Part shown: one piece after another, positions 3,148 to 16,617 of the stretch
Numbering within the stretch: position 1 is the stretch's first letter
Layout: each line of letters opens with the position of its first letter
Origin: a virus
Strand: one strand, 5' to 3'
DNA length: 28,239 bases
IMG/VR virus record: IMGVR_UViG_3300034198_028989
Coordinates: 1-28,239 of that record
Notes under the pieces: model-generated
Told to the model about the DNA's origin: nothing
The model's database searches: none
The model's input: the letters and a program-made list of their open reading frames with translations, nothing else
Program-made: the position numbers and the translations under genes

Positions 3148-3172
3148 AAAATGCCTCAAAAAGAGGCATTTT
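3148..3172 (-). terminator. Intrinsic terminator after the histone H1-like gene
   Basis: A 10-bp stem (3148-3157 with 3163-3172) has a 5-base loop and is followed on the minus strand by a run of Ts (the plus-strand A-run at 3144-3150). It lies 27 bases past the stop at 3200 and upstream of gp32, so it separates the two units. Confidence 0.85.
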
Positions 3173-3199: not shown

Positions 3200-3469
3200 T
3201 TATTTTGCTGCGATTTCGTCAGTTAAAGTTTGGCGAAGATTCTTTGCACCTTCTTGAATTTTAGCCATTTCAGCTTTAATTGCAGGATGCTTAATTTCTT
3301 TACGAATCTCTTGCATTTTCTTTTTAAGTCTGTTTCCAGCACTTTTTACACCCTTTCCATAATACTTGTCAGCATCATCTTCTGCTGCTGAAATAAGGGA
3401 AATAATCGGATCAAAGATTGCAGCCTGTGCAGATGCAATTTCAGATTTTAGTTTTTCAAAATCGTTCAT
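3200..3469 (-). CDS. Histone H1-like DNA-binding protein
   Basis: The 89-residue protein is rich in Lys and Ala. It carries the core typical of small histone H1-like proteins of Bacteroidota (Hc1-like): D-A-D-K-Y-Y-G-K-G, then K-S-A-G-N-R-L-K-K-K-M-Q-E-I-R-K (residues 32-57). In hosts such proteins are about 60 residues. Here there is an extra helical N-terminus of about 28 residues and a C-terminal extension. It is expected to bind DNA non-specifically and compact it. It is the last gene of a unit whose three upstream genes carry capsid-targeting-like N-termini, so it may be packaged with the genome, although its own N-terminus fits that motif poorly. An ACTATAAAAAGT stretch 8-19 bases upstream could be an additional start signal. 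The gene likely came from a Bacteroidota host. Confidence 0.82.
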   Translation of the reverse strand: MNDFEKLKSEIASAQAAIFDPIISLISAAEDDADKYYGKGVKSAGNRLKKKMQEIRKEIKHPAIKAEMAKIQEGAKNLRQTLTDEIAAK

Positions 3470-3515
3470 ATTTAATACTTTTTATAGTATTTTACTAAAA
3501 AATATGAATCGGTTC

Positions 3516-4265
3516 TTAGATTGAGTTAATAATATGATCTACTTTAGCTGAAAAGGTAGCGTCTGGATAGAGCTCTAATGATCGAGTAACCCATATTCTT
3601 ATTACTTTATTATATTCCTGATCACTTATATAACCAGATCGAATAAGTGGAAGTAAATAATTATCAAATACTTGGTCTAATGGAATATTTTGAGCCTTTG
3701 AACTTGCATACATTCCTTCAGTCATTGATTCTATCTCATCTTTTAATAGAAAATATTTATAACTTTTTTTGGCATTATTTCTTTCCATTTTATCGCTCAC
3801 ATGAGAATTAAAAGGAGTTCGATTCATACCAAGTTGATCTAGGTGATTTGTTTCATGTGTAAGAATATCAATCAATCTATAATATAATTTACTATAGAGT
3901 ATAGGTTCCTCCTTTGGATTTAAGATAATATGTAGTATGATTTTAGGTATCTTTGATTTTGATCTACTCATTCTTGTATTAGCATCAATACAATATCCTA
4001 AGTGATCAAAATTTATTTTTTCCCAAGGAAGACCTTTAAAGTGACTGTCTTGATCAAGATTAGGTGAATTGTCTGATCTAACATTTAGAATCAAGTCAAA
4101 TGTAAATGGACTAGTAAACTCCATTCCAGAAAAAACCATATATTCAGTACTCTCTTGTAGATATGAAGTACGTAATTTCTCAATTAATGTTTGAGAAAGA
4201 TCTTTAATAAATTGGGATTTTTGATCCATATTTTCGTTTATAAATTCAATAAATGATTTAATCAT
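3516..4265 (-). CDS. Putative zinc metalloprotease (HExxH) with capsid-targeting-like N-terminus
   Basis: The 249-residue protein has HETNH at residues 137-141, preceded by the hydrophobic helix LIDIL. About 35 residues later comes D-E-I-E-S (E177 the likely third ligand), the arrangement of gluzincin-type metallopeptidases. The first residues, S-F-I-E-F-I-N-E, match the T4 internal-protein targeting pattern Y-Q-E-F-I-A-E, in which the prohead protease cuts after the Glu. If that is right, the protein is packaged in the head, loses about 11 residues and may be injected. It has no signal peptide or membrane helix. The ATG overlaps the upstream TAA by one base (TAATG), so translation is coupled to the 167-residue gene. 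Its substrate cannot be told from the sequence. Confidence 0.75.
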   Translation of the reverse strand: MIKSFIEFINENMDQKSQFIKDLSQTLIEKLRTSYLQESTEYMVFSGMEFTSPFTFDLILNVRSDNSPNLDQDSHFKGLPWEKINFDHLGYCIDANTRMSRSKSKIPKIILHIILNPKEEPILYSKLYYRLIDILTHETNHLDQLGMNRTPFNSHVSDKMERNNAKKSYKYFLLKDEIESMTEGMYASSKAQNIPLDQVFDNYLLPLIRSGYISDQEYNKVIRIWVTRSLELYPDATFSAKVDHIINSI

Positions 4266-4768
4266 TACTTTTTATGTTTTATGAAGGTTACATCAATGTC
4301 TTCAGTAGTAGGTGTGCCATTTGAAAAAACTACTGTAACATCAGGTAACTGTTTAGCTATAATGTTTGCCGCTGCTGCATTTTTTAGTTTTTCAATAAAT
4401 GGTAAATCATCACTTGAAATATTTACACGATCGCCTTTAACAATATCTTCTAAGCTTTTTTGACGAACTTCCATCTCTGGTTTAGTCAACTTGTTCTTAT
4501 CTGAATCTATTATGTTTTCCTGGGCCCAAGCTTTTAGTTTTTCAGCATCGATTGAATAACAAGGGTATTCGATTACAACACTACTATCTGGGTATTTACG
4601 ACGACTGTTTCCAAGATCATCGGGTCCTGTCATAAATAGAAATTTATATTCAGTTGGTTTCTTTGCTCCTGGAGCTCCAGGAGCAGCTGGTGCCCCTGGC
4701 AGAGGTGCCATTGCCATATCTTGTTCTACTAAAAAATCAGAATATTTACGAATGTGTTTATTTTTCAT
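4265..4768 (-). CDS. Putative internal head protein with Pro/Ala/Gly-rich linker and capsid-targeting-like N-terminus
   Basis: I chose the ATG at 4768 (167 residues). The frame stays open to a TTG at 4789, but the ATG leaves only an 11-base overlap with the upstream gene and has GAGG directly before it. The N-terminus K-Y-S-D-F-L-V-E (residues 8-15) fits the same aromatic-x-x-F-hydrophobic-x-E pattern as its two neighbours. A low-complexity linker of Pro, Ala and Gly follows at about 20-36. After it comes a soluble domain of about 125 residues with mixed helix and strand and a single Cys. No enzymatic motif was recognised. The linker after a presumed cleavage site looks like a flexible tether. 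It is second in the four-gene unit. Confidence 0.72.
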   Translation of the reverse strand: MKNKHIRKYSDFLVEQDMAMAPLPGAPAAPGAPGAKKPTEYKFLFMTGPDDLGNSRRKYPDSSVVIEYPCYSIDAEKLKAWAQENIIDSDKNKLTKPEMEVRQKSLEDIVKGDRVNISSDDLPFIEKLKNAAAANIIAKQLPDVTVVFSNGTPTTEDIDVTFIKHKK

Positions 4769-4991
4769 CCTCGTTCTTTGCTTTTTCAACTAGTTTACCA
4801 CCATATTGATTCCACTGGCCTAGATTTACTTTAATTGTATCTGTACCCTGTCTCCTAGGTAATTGAATTACACCATTTCCGGCTTTTTTGACTTTATATT
4901 TTGTACCCTTCCAGTTAACAATATCGTTTTTTTCTATTGAATTAAACTCATTATCTTTACTTTCATTTACAAATTGATTAAAATTAAGCAT
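4758..4991 (-). CDS. Small putative internal head protein with capsid-targeting-like N-terminus
   Basis: The 77-residue protein begins M-L-N-F-N-Q-F-V-N-E. Residues 4-10 repeat the pattern seen in the next two genes and in T4 internal proteins (aromatic-x-x-F-aliphatic-x-Glu). The remainder looks like a small beta-rich domain with alternating hydrophobic residues, Gly and Lys (about 20-65), followed by a charged tail. I do not recognise the domain. It is the first gene of the unit, 15 bases downstream of a late-promoter-like box at 5007-5016, and overlaps the next start by 11 bases. A role inside the virion is inferred only from the N-terminal motif, the promoter type and the neighbours. Confidence 0.72.
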   Translation of the reverse strand: MLNFNQFVNESKDNEFNSIEKNDIVNWKGTKYKVKKAGNGVIQLPRRQGTDTIKVNLGQWNQYGGKLVEKAKNEDEK

Positions 4992-5006
4992 GAAAATAGA
5001 TTTTTT

Positions 5007-5016
5007 ATTATTTATC
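5007..5016 (-). promoter_or_regulatory. Late-promoter-like box GATAAATAAT
   Basis: On the minus strand the 10-mer ends 15 bases before the ATG at 4991. It matches boxes at 16631 and 19679, and resembles the T4 late promoter TATAAATA recognised by gp55. The short leader fits that use. It lies just after the NrdA terminator, so the head-protein genes would need their own promoter here. Confidence 0.6.
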
Positions 5017-5025
5017 TAAACAAAA

Positions 5026-5050
5026 AAGCAGCAAAAGTTATTTGCTGCTT
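5026..5050 (-). terminator. Intrinsic terminator after nrdA
   Basis: A 10-bp stem (5026-5035 with 5041-5050) has a 5-base loop, with a T-run following on the minus strand (plus-strand A-run at 5022-5027). It lies 21 bases after the nrdA stop at 5072. Confidence 0.85.
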
Positions 5051-14097: not shown

Positions 14098-14346
14098 TTA
14101 ATTTAGTGCAAATTCATATTCTTTCTTAGTTGACTTGGAGTCTTCTGTGACTCTAAATCGAGTAGCATCGTAACCTATCCATCGCATACCCATCTTAGTT
14201 ATCCCTTCATTAGTGATCCCTTTGATAATGTATACTCGTTGGTCTAGAGCATTATGATACTCATTTTCGACTTCGTATTCTTCTCCAGCAACTACGTGAG
14301 CCCCTTCAGGAAGATTTTTATCGTTTATGCAGGTGACTTTTTTCAT
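14098..14346 (-). CDS. Small beta-barrel-like phage protein, function unknown (82 residues)
   Basis: The protein opens M-K-K-V-T-C-I-N-D-K and has a G-E-E-Y-E-V segment, then Y-I-I-K-G and a G-Y-D-A-T-R-F motif near residue 60. The order of short strands resembles small SH3-like accessory proteins common in phages (a strand ending in a Cys, a G-x-x-Y-x-V turn, then a W/Y-x-x-x-R-F end), but this is only a structural impression. It is coupled to the UvdE gene by ATGA and followed after one base by the next gene. Confidence 0.78.
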   Translation of the reverse strand: MKKVTCINDKNLPEGAHVVAGEEYEVENEYHNALDQRVYIIKGITNEGITKMGMRWIGYDATRFRVTEDSKSTKKEYEFALN

Positions 14347-15281
14347 TGTATTTCAAATTCAAATTTTAACTCTTCTGTAACGACTCCTTCATTAGCTAAG
14401 TATCGAAGTAGAGCTAAGTCTTTTGCTTTTGCCTCTATTTCTACATCTGCATCAAATCCATAATCTGGAATAGTATCATACACGTAATCTGCATGTGAAC
14501 GATTGATTACTGAAGAGTCTTCGTATAGTGCTTTTGAACTAGAGAAGTGTTGTAATGGAGTAATATCTCCCCAGGTAGAAGCTGCAAGGTTGGCTGCTTG
14601 CTCTGCTGAAATATCGTTAGTGCAAAAACGGTGATGGAAGTGATCAAAGGTAATTGGACAGCCAACTACTTTGTAGACTCCATTAAAAAGATCCATTACT
14701 CCAAACTGACTAGCCTTGTCATCGTTTTCGACTACTAGTCGAGCTTGGGTTGAGGGGGCGAGTAGCTTGAAGTTTTCGCAAAACCGTTGCAATGCAGAAT
14801 GTTTATCTCCATAAGATCCACCGATATGAATATTGATTGCTGCACGGTGGTCTTGCGGAAGTCCCATTAGATCCATGATACGAGCATGCTGATCTAGATC
14901 ATAAATGGTCTTGCGAACTACTTCTGAGTTGGGGGAGGCAAGCACGTCAAACTGACCTGGATGAAAGGATAGCCTAGCACTAAATGTTTTAGCAACATTG
15001 CCTATTCTTTGGGCAAGGACCTGAATTTTGTCAAACTCTGGAAGATCCTCAAGTCTGTATTCACTCATCCATGGAAATAGGTCACTGGACATTCGATAGA
15101 CTTGTATACCATTTAGATTGTTCCACGTAAGAATAATAAAGAGATCATCTAGATTCTTTTGAATTAGTTCACTTACGTAGTTTAGCCCTTTTTCATCAAA
15201 AGTTTTTTTGACCATACCGCGATTAGTAGTGATTCCCTGATCCTTCAGGCTTAAATTTATACAACAATATCCTAGTCTCAT
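14343..15281 (-). CDS. uvsE: UV damage endonuclease (UvdE/UvsE family)
   Basis: The 312-residue protein carries the family's TIM-barrel signature throughout: R-L-G-Y-C-C-I-N-L at the start, Y-R-M-S-S-D-L-F-P-W (62-71), S-F-H-P-G-Q-F-D-V-L-A (H107), I-N-I-H-I-G-G-S-Y-G-D-K (H152), L-V-V-E-N-D-D-K (E185) and T-F-D-H-F-H-H (D213, H214, H216, H217). These provide the metal ligands and the DNA-binding region. The enzyme nicks DNA 5' to UV photoproducts and some other lesions, starting an alternative excision repair. T4 itself uses the unrelated DenV for this task. It is the first gene of the leftmost-reading unit beginning at the strand switch. Confidence 0.95.
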   Translation of the reverse strand: MRLGYCCINLSLKDQGITTNRGMVKKTFDEKGLNYVSELIQKNLDDLFIILTWNNLNGIQVYRMSSDLFPWMSEYRLEDLPEFDKIQVLAQRIGNVAKTFSARLSFHPGQFDVLASPNSEVVRKTIYDLDQHARIMDLMGLPQDHRAAINIHIGGSYGDKHSALQRFCENFKLLAPSTQARLVVENDDKASQFGVMDLFNGVYKVVGCPITFDHFHHRFCTNDISAEQAANLAASTWGDITPLQHFSSSKALYEDSSVINRSHADYVYDTIPDYGFDADVEIEAKAKDLALLRYLANEGVVTEELKFEFEIQ

Positions 15282-15548: not shown

Positions 15549-16208
15549 ATGACAATTGTAAGCATAGATTTTTCGATACTCTATCCGGGTATATGTATTT
15601 GTAGAGACTTTAAAGAGTTTAAATGGTTTTCAGTAGTAAATACTAAGCTACGGAAAGTCGACAAAGAAAATCTAGAGCACCTTGTTATTAAATATCCAAA
15701 TCTTCAATTAGACCAGACAAGTACAGTAAGAAAAACTCATCCAGAGTATCATATTACTGAGAGAACAAAACTAGTCAACTATCAGGATCTAGTAGATCGA
15801 ATAATCACAAATATTTTAAAAGAAGTAGGCGACGATCAAGTAATCGTAGCGATCGAAGGAATCTCATTTGGTTCAAAGGGTAACTCACTAGTAGATATTT
15901 CACAGTCTACTGGAATACTTAAATATGCTCTTCTTACTAGAGTCTTAAAGGGAGATGCTGATCGATTATTTGTTTTTAGTCCAAGCGAACTTAAGAATGC
16001 TATTGCCTGTAAAGGTAACGCTAATAAAATGGATATTTTCAATAAATTTAAGGAGGACCCTATTATTGAATCAGTAAAAGATTCAGATTTGCACAAGGCG
16101 ATTTTTGAAGAAAAATGGATAGTTCAAGGAGACAAGATAATTTCTCCAATAATTGATATGGTAGACTCCTTTCTAGGCGTCGTTAAGATTTACCAACTTT
16201 TAAAATAA
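15549..16208 (+). CDS. ruvC: RuvC-like Holliday junction resolvase
   Basis: The 219-residue protein has the RNase H-fold acidic tetrad of RuvC-type resolvases. It comprises V-S-I-D-F-S (D7), V-A-I-E-G-I-S-F-G-S-K-G-N (E103), and I-I-D-M-V-D-S-F-L-G (D203, D206), with the F-S-P-S-E-L-K-N..K-G-N-A-N-K stretch at 144-160 typical of the family's DNA-binding lysines. It should resolve branched recombination intermediates before packaging, the task done by endonuclease VII (gp49) in T4. An in-frame alternative start is not available, because the ATG at 15545 is in another frame (ATGAATG). It is directly followed by gene 55. The length is above bacterial RuvC (about 170 residues), with an insertion at about 35-75. 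Confidence 0.85.
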   Translation: MTIVSIDFSILYPGICICRDFKEFKWFSVVNTKLRKVDKENLEHLVIKYPNLQLDQTSTVRKTHPEYHITERTKLVNYQDLVDRIITNILKEVGDDQVIVAIEGISFGSKGNSLVDISQSTGILKYALLTRVLKGDADRLFVFSPSELKNAIACKGNANKMDIFNKFKEDPIIESVKDSDLHKAIFEEKWIVQGDKIISPIIDMVDSFLGVVKIYQLLK

Positions 16209-16218
16209 TTAACTATGA

Positions 16219-16617
16219 ATGGCAAGAAAAAAGAAAGGGGACACCCACTACATTAACAATAAAGAGTTTACTGCAGATATTATCCTTTGTAAACAGAATG
16301 GAGAGCTCTCAGACTATACAATAAACTGTTTTATCTCACTAGCCAATCGAGCAGTAGATCGTCTCTATTTTAAAGATTATCGCGATAGAGAAGACTGTAT
16401 TCAATCAGCAATCCTAGATTGCTTAAAGTATTGGAAAAGCTTTGACGAAACTAAAATGGCTGTACCAAATGCATTTGCCTACTTTACACAAATTTGTAAA
16501 AATGGATATGCTAAAGAATGGAAAAAGATCCATAAAAAGACTGGATTAGACGCTGACGACACTCTAGAATTTATCTCAATTAGTACAAGCGGAGAAAATT
16601 CAGTGTATAGCATATAA
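16219..16617 (+). CDS. 55: gp55-like late-transcription sigma factor
   Basis: The 132-residue protein resembles T4 gp55 (185 residues). H-Y-I-N-N-K-E-F at 10-17 matches Y-N-Y-V-N-N-K-E-L. A helical sigma-2-like region follows, with Y-R-D-R-E-D-C-I-Q-S-A-I-L-D-C. F-D-E-T-K....N-A-F-A-Y-F-T-Q-I at 75-92 matches F-D-E-T-K..N-P-H-A-Y-I-T-Q. It would direct host RNA polymerase to late promoters of the TATAAATA type. The C-terminal part is shorter than in T4. T-L-E-F-I at 115-119 is similar to the S-L-D-F-L/T-L-D-F-L clamp-binding ends of gp55 and gp33, but here 13 more residues follow. It lies immediately before the structural block it presumably switches on. Confidence 0.85.
   Translation: MARKKKGDTHYINNKEFTADIILCKQNGELSDYTINCFISLANRAVDRLYFKDYRDREDCIQSAILDCLKYWKSFDETKMAVPNAFAYFTQICKNGYAKEWKKIHKKTGLDADDTLEFISISTSGENSVYSI

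Follow-up and report, generated by a model that had tools for sequence, protein, structure and literature searches.

The prohead protease gp21 of phage T4 cuts after [LI]-x-E, with A, S or G preferred as the next residue. The bodies of internal head proteins are diverse among T4-like phages, and homology of the body is not required of cargo that carries a capsid-targeting sequence (CTS). Experiments in T4 show that residues 4 and 7 direct targeting and that residues 8 and 10 govern processing (PMC9026906). The propeptide of T4 gp23 is 65 residues long (PMC5694885), and the heptad FGSFLTE65 forms its end. In phage PAU, N-terminal sequencing is reported to give a mature capsid protein of 520 of 585 residues (PMC5646251), which places the cut at or directly beside ALME64, again an L-x-E site.

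The DNA analyzed here, referred to as the window, is the entire 28,239-base IMG/VR record IMGVR_UViG_3300034198_028989. Its products include a gp32-like single-strand binding protein (phrog_224), GroES (Pfam Cpn10), large structural proteins and, from a by-eye reading of the translations, ribonucleotide reductase subunits and GroEL. Together with a gp55-like gene, these genes identify it as a piece of a T4-like phage. DNA comparison with the phage collection found no near relative of the window. The protease and capsid genes are absent from it and are known only from relatives, which were retrieved from IMG/VR by searches with P0002, P0003 and the protease-scaffold protein. The sample consists of contigs of 23-176 kb, LR745206 (W03, 634.8 kb), LR756500 (W02, 462 kb), PAU, PTm1 and T4, each scanned in its entirety. 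Gene calls follow a simple longest-ORF rule, which makes their start codons approximate. The features of the window discussed below are as follows.

5026-5050, minus strand: terminator-like hairpin after nrdA, the upstream boundary of the unit; a similar hairpin lies 5' of the box in relatives.
5008-5015, minus strand: late-promoter-like box ATAAATAA, 24 nt ahead of the first start codon (P0001).
4758-4991, minus strand: open reading frame of P0001, a small basic protein of 77 aa, N-terminally tagged.
4962-4991, minus strand: P0001 tag MLNF4NQF7V8NE10, followed by S11, in the register of T4 IpIII (MKTY4QEF7I8AE10).
4265-4768, minus strand: P0002, 167 aa, with a tag, a flexible Pro/Ala linker and a folded alpha/beta domain of unknown fold.
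4724-4768, minus strand: P0002 tag MKNKHIRKYSDFLVE15, followed by Q16; it resembles the tag MKYIKEYEEFLLE of huge phage W02.
3516-4265, minus strand: P0003, 249 aa, a tagged putative zinc metallopeptidase whose start codon overlaps the P0002 stop codon.
4233-4265, minus strand: P0003 tag MIKSFIEFINE11, followed by N12.
3843-3857, minus strand: HExxH motif of P0003 (H137-E138-T-N-H141), invariant in the homologue alignment.
3200-3469, minus strand: P0004, 89 aa, Hc1 (histone H1-like), untagged, conserved beside the tagged genes.
3148-3172, minus strand: terminator-like hairpin closing the unit.
14343-15281, minus strand: UV-damage endonuclease UvdE (Pfam, E = 1.4e-52).
15549-16208, plus strand: RuvC-like resolvase, directly 5' of the gp55-like late sigma factor gene.
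16219-16617, plus strand: gp55-like late sigma factor (E = 1.2e-19 to phrog_234, late sigma transcription factor), which probably reads the late box.

An earlier note on this DNA, made without database searches, had described three adjacent minus-strand genes whose products start with a common heptad, in a unit that opens with a late-promoter-like box and closes with a histone H1-like gene and a terminator. The three open reading frames, the box, the Pfam match of P0004 and the hairpin all agree with that description. The longest frame of the P0002 gene begins at an upstream TTG (174 aa), and the 167-residue ATG start is backed by the alignment of relatives. P0002 and P0003 are always neighbours in relatives, with stop and start codons that overlap or touch, and in every close relative checked the Hc1-like gene separates the tagged genes from gp32. 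The interval from nrdA to gp32 is a variable island in which different tagged genes are inserted in other relatives. In G006 it holds an extra tagged phosphatase-like protein (Y_phosphatase3, E = 1.9e-5), and other tagged genes are added there in G012 and G016.

The heptads are F4-N-Q-F-V-N-E10 in P0001, Y9-S-D-F-L-V-E15 in P0002 and F5-I-E-F-I-N-E11 in P0003. Each presents the T4-type register, with aromatics at the equivalents of positions 4 and 7, a hydrophobic residue at 8 and Glu at 10, and P0001 matches the residue roles known from T4 exactly. The pattern used here to define the tag, [FY]xx[FYW][ILV]xE, occurs at residue 4 in exactly two T4 proteins, IpII and IpIII, both annotated as internal head proteins, which upholds the likeness to a T4 capsid-targeting N-terminus that the earlier note proposed. 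Since the overall N-terminal count in T4 is not significant (3 versus 1.8 expected), T4 supports the register and not the statistic. The tag is conserved in about a dozen relatives, and all close relatives of the three families carry it. Its aromatics and Glu are invariant or nearly so in the family alignments (13 sequences for P0001, 15 for P0002 and 16 for P0003), with F4, Q6, N9 and E10 invariant in P0001 and F12, E15, Q16 and D17 in P0002. The same peptide is encoded by different synonymous codons among copies, so selection acts on the peptide, and an explanation of the tag at the mRNA or codon level was rejected. Beyond the tag the bodies are unrelated, as had been claimed, with the three pairwise comparisons returning no match, E = 2.1 and E = 4.3.

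Cleavage after the tag Glu would leave residues 11, 16 and 12 as the new N-termini of P0001, P0002 and P0003, as the earlier note had counted correctly. P0001 continues from V-N-E to Ser. The next residue is an invariant Gln in P0002 and Asn, Ser or Asp in P0003; cleavage of these two proteins is uncertain because the residue is mostly not the classical A, S or G. Among tags of the whole clade, 65% have A, S or G here, compared with a background of 19%. In G018, a distant P0003 homologue is untagged, yet its P0002-like neighbour is tagged (MLKNFTNWLNEQ). Perhaps the two proteins are carried together as a complex, or perhaps G018 can do without this tag.

A search for the motif across the genome and its relatives, which the earlier note had proposed as a check, shows that in the relatives it clusters at residues 4-9. 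In the window the strict motif is N-terminal in 3 of 27 proteins (0.07 expected from internal positions), and residue-shuffled N-termini give a mean of 0.05 and a maximum of 1 over 300 trials. By the same chance estimate, 11 proteins of G007 have an N-terminal motif where 0.35 are expected. Nine clade records together contain 48 strict motifs at residues 4-9, 12 elsewhere up to residue 40, and 39 in the remaining ~244,000 residues; this count leaves out the scaffold protein, and many of the counted proteins are orthologues. A motif in a topoisomerase subunit (YAVYVVE at residue 20) was discounted as a tag because it falls outside the residue 4-9 peak. When spaced patterns with a final Glu are scanned without bias, [FYWH]xx[FYWH][ILVM]xE ranks first in G007 (11 versus 0.54 expected), G012 (13 versus 0.82) and G013 (9 versus 0.94). 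A longer variant, [FYW]xx[FYWH]xx[ILVM]xE, is also enriched (for example, MSYLLNYKNWRALYES). The tagged clusters of the clade comprise well over a dozen unrelated families, and the tagged sets vary greatly from relative to relative.

The late-like box and the gp55-like sigma factor, both identified from sequence, support the prediction that the operon is expressed late. In G013, a gene start follows within 90 nt for 48 of 68 ATAAATAA boxes (3.6 expected), and the spacing is mostly 22-29 nt. The box also lies 26 nt before the protease-scaffold gene in relatives; it precedes this gene in all five that were checked and stands before most of the cargo-operon starts listed. Across pooled genomes, 53 of 88 tagged genes have a late box, compared with 113 of 820 others (odds ratio 9.5). 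Orthologues inflate the pooled p value and leave single-genome counts unaffected, and in G013 alone the box precedes 13 of 17 tagged genes versus 32 of 189 others. The second and third genes of the operon are tagged and have no late box directly upstream.

The relatives encode an S77 prohead protease-scaffold fusion of ~650-680 residues directly before the gp23-type capsid gene. Its protease domain matches head maturation protease phrog_207 (E = 1.1e-36), and its middle consists of about eleven 14-residue tandem repeats (for example, YSEYIAESLGEG), which open with seven residues that follow the tag pattern. This protein is the only one in each genome with at least 4 motif copies, and it has 8-13 repeat copies in the window clade and in most huge phages examined. 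In the 634-, 636-, 642- and 735-kb huge phages there are at least 10 copies, some of them nearly perfect, and the scaffold repeats of W02 (462 kb) are degenerate. No such repeats were seen in the scaffolds of Lak, SP-15 or PTm1. A profile built only from the repeats recovers N-termini as 11 of its top 40 matches in the clade (3.1 expected, p = 2e-4). It predicts them only weakly in W03 (p = 0.03, top 40) because the fourth position is preferentially Phe in tags and Tyr in repeats. The kinship of tag and repeat, as judged from these profiles, is thus one of pattern and not of close sequence. We found no account of this resemblance in the open-access literature; subscription papers were mostly outside the scope of the search.

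Several other genes bear on the repeats or lie near them. W03 encodes an 83-aa protein that consists almost only of scaffold-type repeats (YEDYIAESLEKNIS YSEYISENLN...), beside a DnaJ-like gene (460435-460686, L112:435-686, minus strand). An 85-aa protein of G013 (161332-161589, L092:1332-1589, plus strand) starts with SYSEYLSDSLKES, almost a scaffold repeat, and continues into a small basic domain, which is the layout of P0001. A gene for a DnaJ-domain protein (E = 3.3e-24; L031:11731-12741 and relatives) lies directly 5' of the protease-scaffold gene, and GroEL and GroES are present in the window.

The two huge phages scanned each have tens of tagged proteins. Those of W03 include a T4-type RNA ligase (8e-21), a SMODS-associated NUDIX protein (4e-30), a GH108 lysozyme-like protein and a 2H phosphodiesterase with weak similarity to Acb1 (6.7e-5) that is fused to an exonuclease domain. 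Their family names allow the inference that these enzymes counter host defence. W03 also has a second type of tag, MK[HY][LI]Kx[FY]NE[S], on about 70 mostly uncharacterised genes, many of them clustered (for example, at W03:450900-458342); one pattern of this tag occurs in 48 proteins versus 3.9 expected. The only Pfam families found among 63 proteins with this tag are NUDIX, DUF6576 and Peptidase_M15_4, so no replication or core metabolism genes turned up. Part of the MKYLKxFNE set looks paralogous, with an LKDDGF-like stretch common to several members, and the count therefore overstates independent tagging. PAU (L188) has its own tag, MKT[LI]xxLYE, on 23 proteins (2.9 expected), many of which are encoded around the head genes (gp131-gp166). 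Carriers include gp142 and gp154, deposited as 'internal capsid protein', and one protein deposited as scaffolding; the basis of these assignments is not stated. Searches for virion proteomics turned up none for any member, and none for PAU or Flavobacterium phage immuto.

Searches of Pfam and PHROG return no significant family for the bodies of P0001, P0002 or P0003. P0001 is basic, with a pI of 9.6 after the presumed cut. In the structural model of P0002 the tag and linker have low confidence and are probably flexible, and the remaining domain is folded; a fold search with this domain gave no significant PDB match. A weak Pfam match of P0002 to potato inhibitor I (E = 0.028) was rejected, as the fold search does not support it. 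P0003 has invariant H137, E138, H141 and E177 in 16 homologues, including one that is 26% identical, and its confident model (pLDDT 87) places HExxH in a helix at 122-145 and E177 in a helix at 175-192. A PDB fold search with P0003 found no match below E = 0.001, and its profile found nothing among PDB sequences. BFVD offers weak IrrE and SprT entries and, as a weak fold neighbour, a 'structural protein' of Serratia phage BF (E = 6e-3), and immuto has a weak P0003 match in the C-terminal part of a NadR-like protein. From its conserved residues and model, P0003 is a putative zinc metallopeptidase of unrecognised fold. P0004 matches Pfam Hc1 (PF07432) at E = 2.6e-10, with 40.4 bits against a curated cut-off of 23.5, and tblastn of the phage collection with its gene gave no relative.

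The unit is quite probably a late-expressed head-cargo operon whose proteins carry T4-type capsid-targeting sequences resembling one scaffold repeat. The concentration of the motif at N-termini, the late box, the scaffold repeats and the agreement with T4 IpII and IpIII all support the head-cargo interpretation of the earlier note; packaging, cleavage and injection remain inferences. The first 10-15 residues of each tagged protein would act as the targeting sequence, and their aromatic-xx-aromatic face may bind the growing prohead core by imitating one 14-residue unit of the protease-fused tandem-repeat scaffold. Only the sequence pattern common to both is observed here, and binding is inferred from it. 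The protease would then cut after the Glu of [ILV]-x-E in scaffold repeats and tags alike, which fits the known gp21 rule. If so, the mature cargo could be left loose in the head, be packed alongside the DNA and reach the next cell. It would comprise the small basic P0001, P0002 with its unknown fold and P0003, the putative HExxH metallopeptidase; the same operon also encodes an untagged DNA-binding protein of the Hc1-like kind.

A broader reading, which we advance only tentatively and slightly short of even confidence, treats the scaffold half of the fusion as a docking array and its repeat unit as an address label. Any protein with one N-terminal unit would then enter the core, be released by the protease and travel on to the next cell. 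The system would have expanded in huge phages to tens of packaged proteins, including counter-defence-like enzymes such as the RNA ligase, the Acb1-like phosphodiesterase with its exonuclease domain and the CBASS-type NUDIX protein.

It is conceivable, though we think it unlikely, that the tag binds the scaffold but that tagged proteins are head-assembly factors, such as core components or a second morphogenetic protease with its partner, which work in the prohead without being passed on to the next host. The invariant HExxH site of P0003 would suit such a protease, and the constant adjacency of P0002 and P0003 with overlapping or touching codons resembles that of an assembly pair. The weak resemblance of P0003 to the Serratia phage BF protein and its one untagged distant homologue are further points on this side. 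However, a variable island with differing tagged genes, such as the phosphatase-like gene of G006, suits accessory cargo better, and so do the great differences between the tagged sets of relatives.

Delivery as head cargo is also preferred to a role of the N-terminus outside the head, either as a signal for another intracellular compartment or as a translation-initiation feature of late mRNAs. Such a feature could ride along with the late box that tagged genes have in common, and the function of many tagged proteins is unknown. But the second and third genes of the operon are tagged without a box directly upstream, the peptide is kept while its codons differ, and both the 8-13 motif copies in the scaffold half of the prohead protease and the match to T4 IpII and IpIII would be left unexplained, which makes this explanation very improbable. 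There is next to no room for the remaining possibility, that the tags are alike by chance or because a single ancestral gene or N-terminus was duplicated. Duplication could account for the identical start MLKSFIQFINE of two neighbouring proteins in G006 and for the paralogous-looking part of the W03 set, but not for bodies that are unrelated, and the counts exclude chance (3 and 11 observed versus 0.07 and 0.35 expected in the window and G007).

The head-cargo reading suggests what the T4 capsid-targeting peptide imitates, namely one unit of a repeat scaffold, and it gives a sequence rule that predicts head-carried proteins of jumbo and huge phages. If the docking-array reading is true, then the head contents of huge phages could be read from sequence. 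Several of these predicted cargoes are similar to enzymes that would disable bacterial immunity as the DNA enters.

Other phages have parts of this arrangement. An N-terminal signal brings the large protein DarB into the head of phage P1, but P1 has no separate T4-type scaffold (PMC9024508). In SPN3US and other phiKZ-type phages the prohead protease removes N-terminal propeptides from many head proteins, but these are mostly longer than 100 residues and no gp22 counterpart is confirmed (PMC5694885). The 'Prohead core scaffolding protein and protease' of Tenacibaculum phage PTm1 likewise combines a protease domain and a scaffold in one protein encoded beside the capsid gene, but it lacks YxxY[LIV]xE repeats and the phage lacks a clear tag; lake Bacteroidetes phages have a protein of the same name (PMC9723584). 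The CTS of T4 IpI-IpIII and Alt, cut by gp21, is likewise an N-terminal peptide of 10-15 residues with aromatics three apart followed by [ILV]-x-E. Unrelated bodies and late expression are also common to T4 and the window clade, and the S77 protease and gp23-type capsid are present in relatives. In T4, however, the scaffold gp22 is separate and without such repeats, whereas the scaffold of the window clade is fused to the protease and carries ~11 tag-like copies, and the cargo set of the clade is larger and different.
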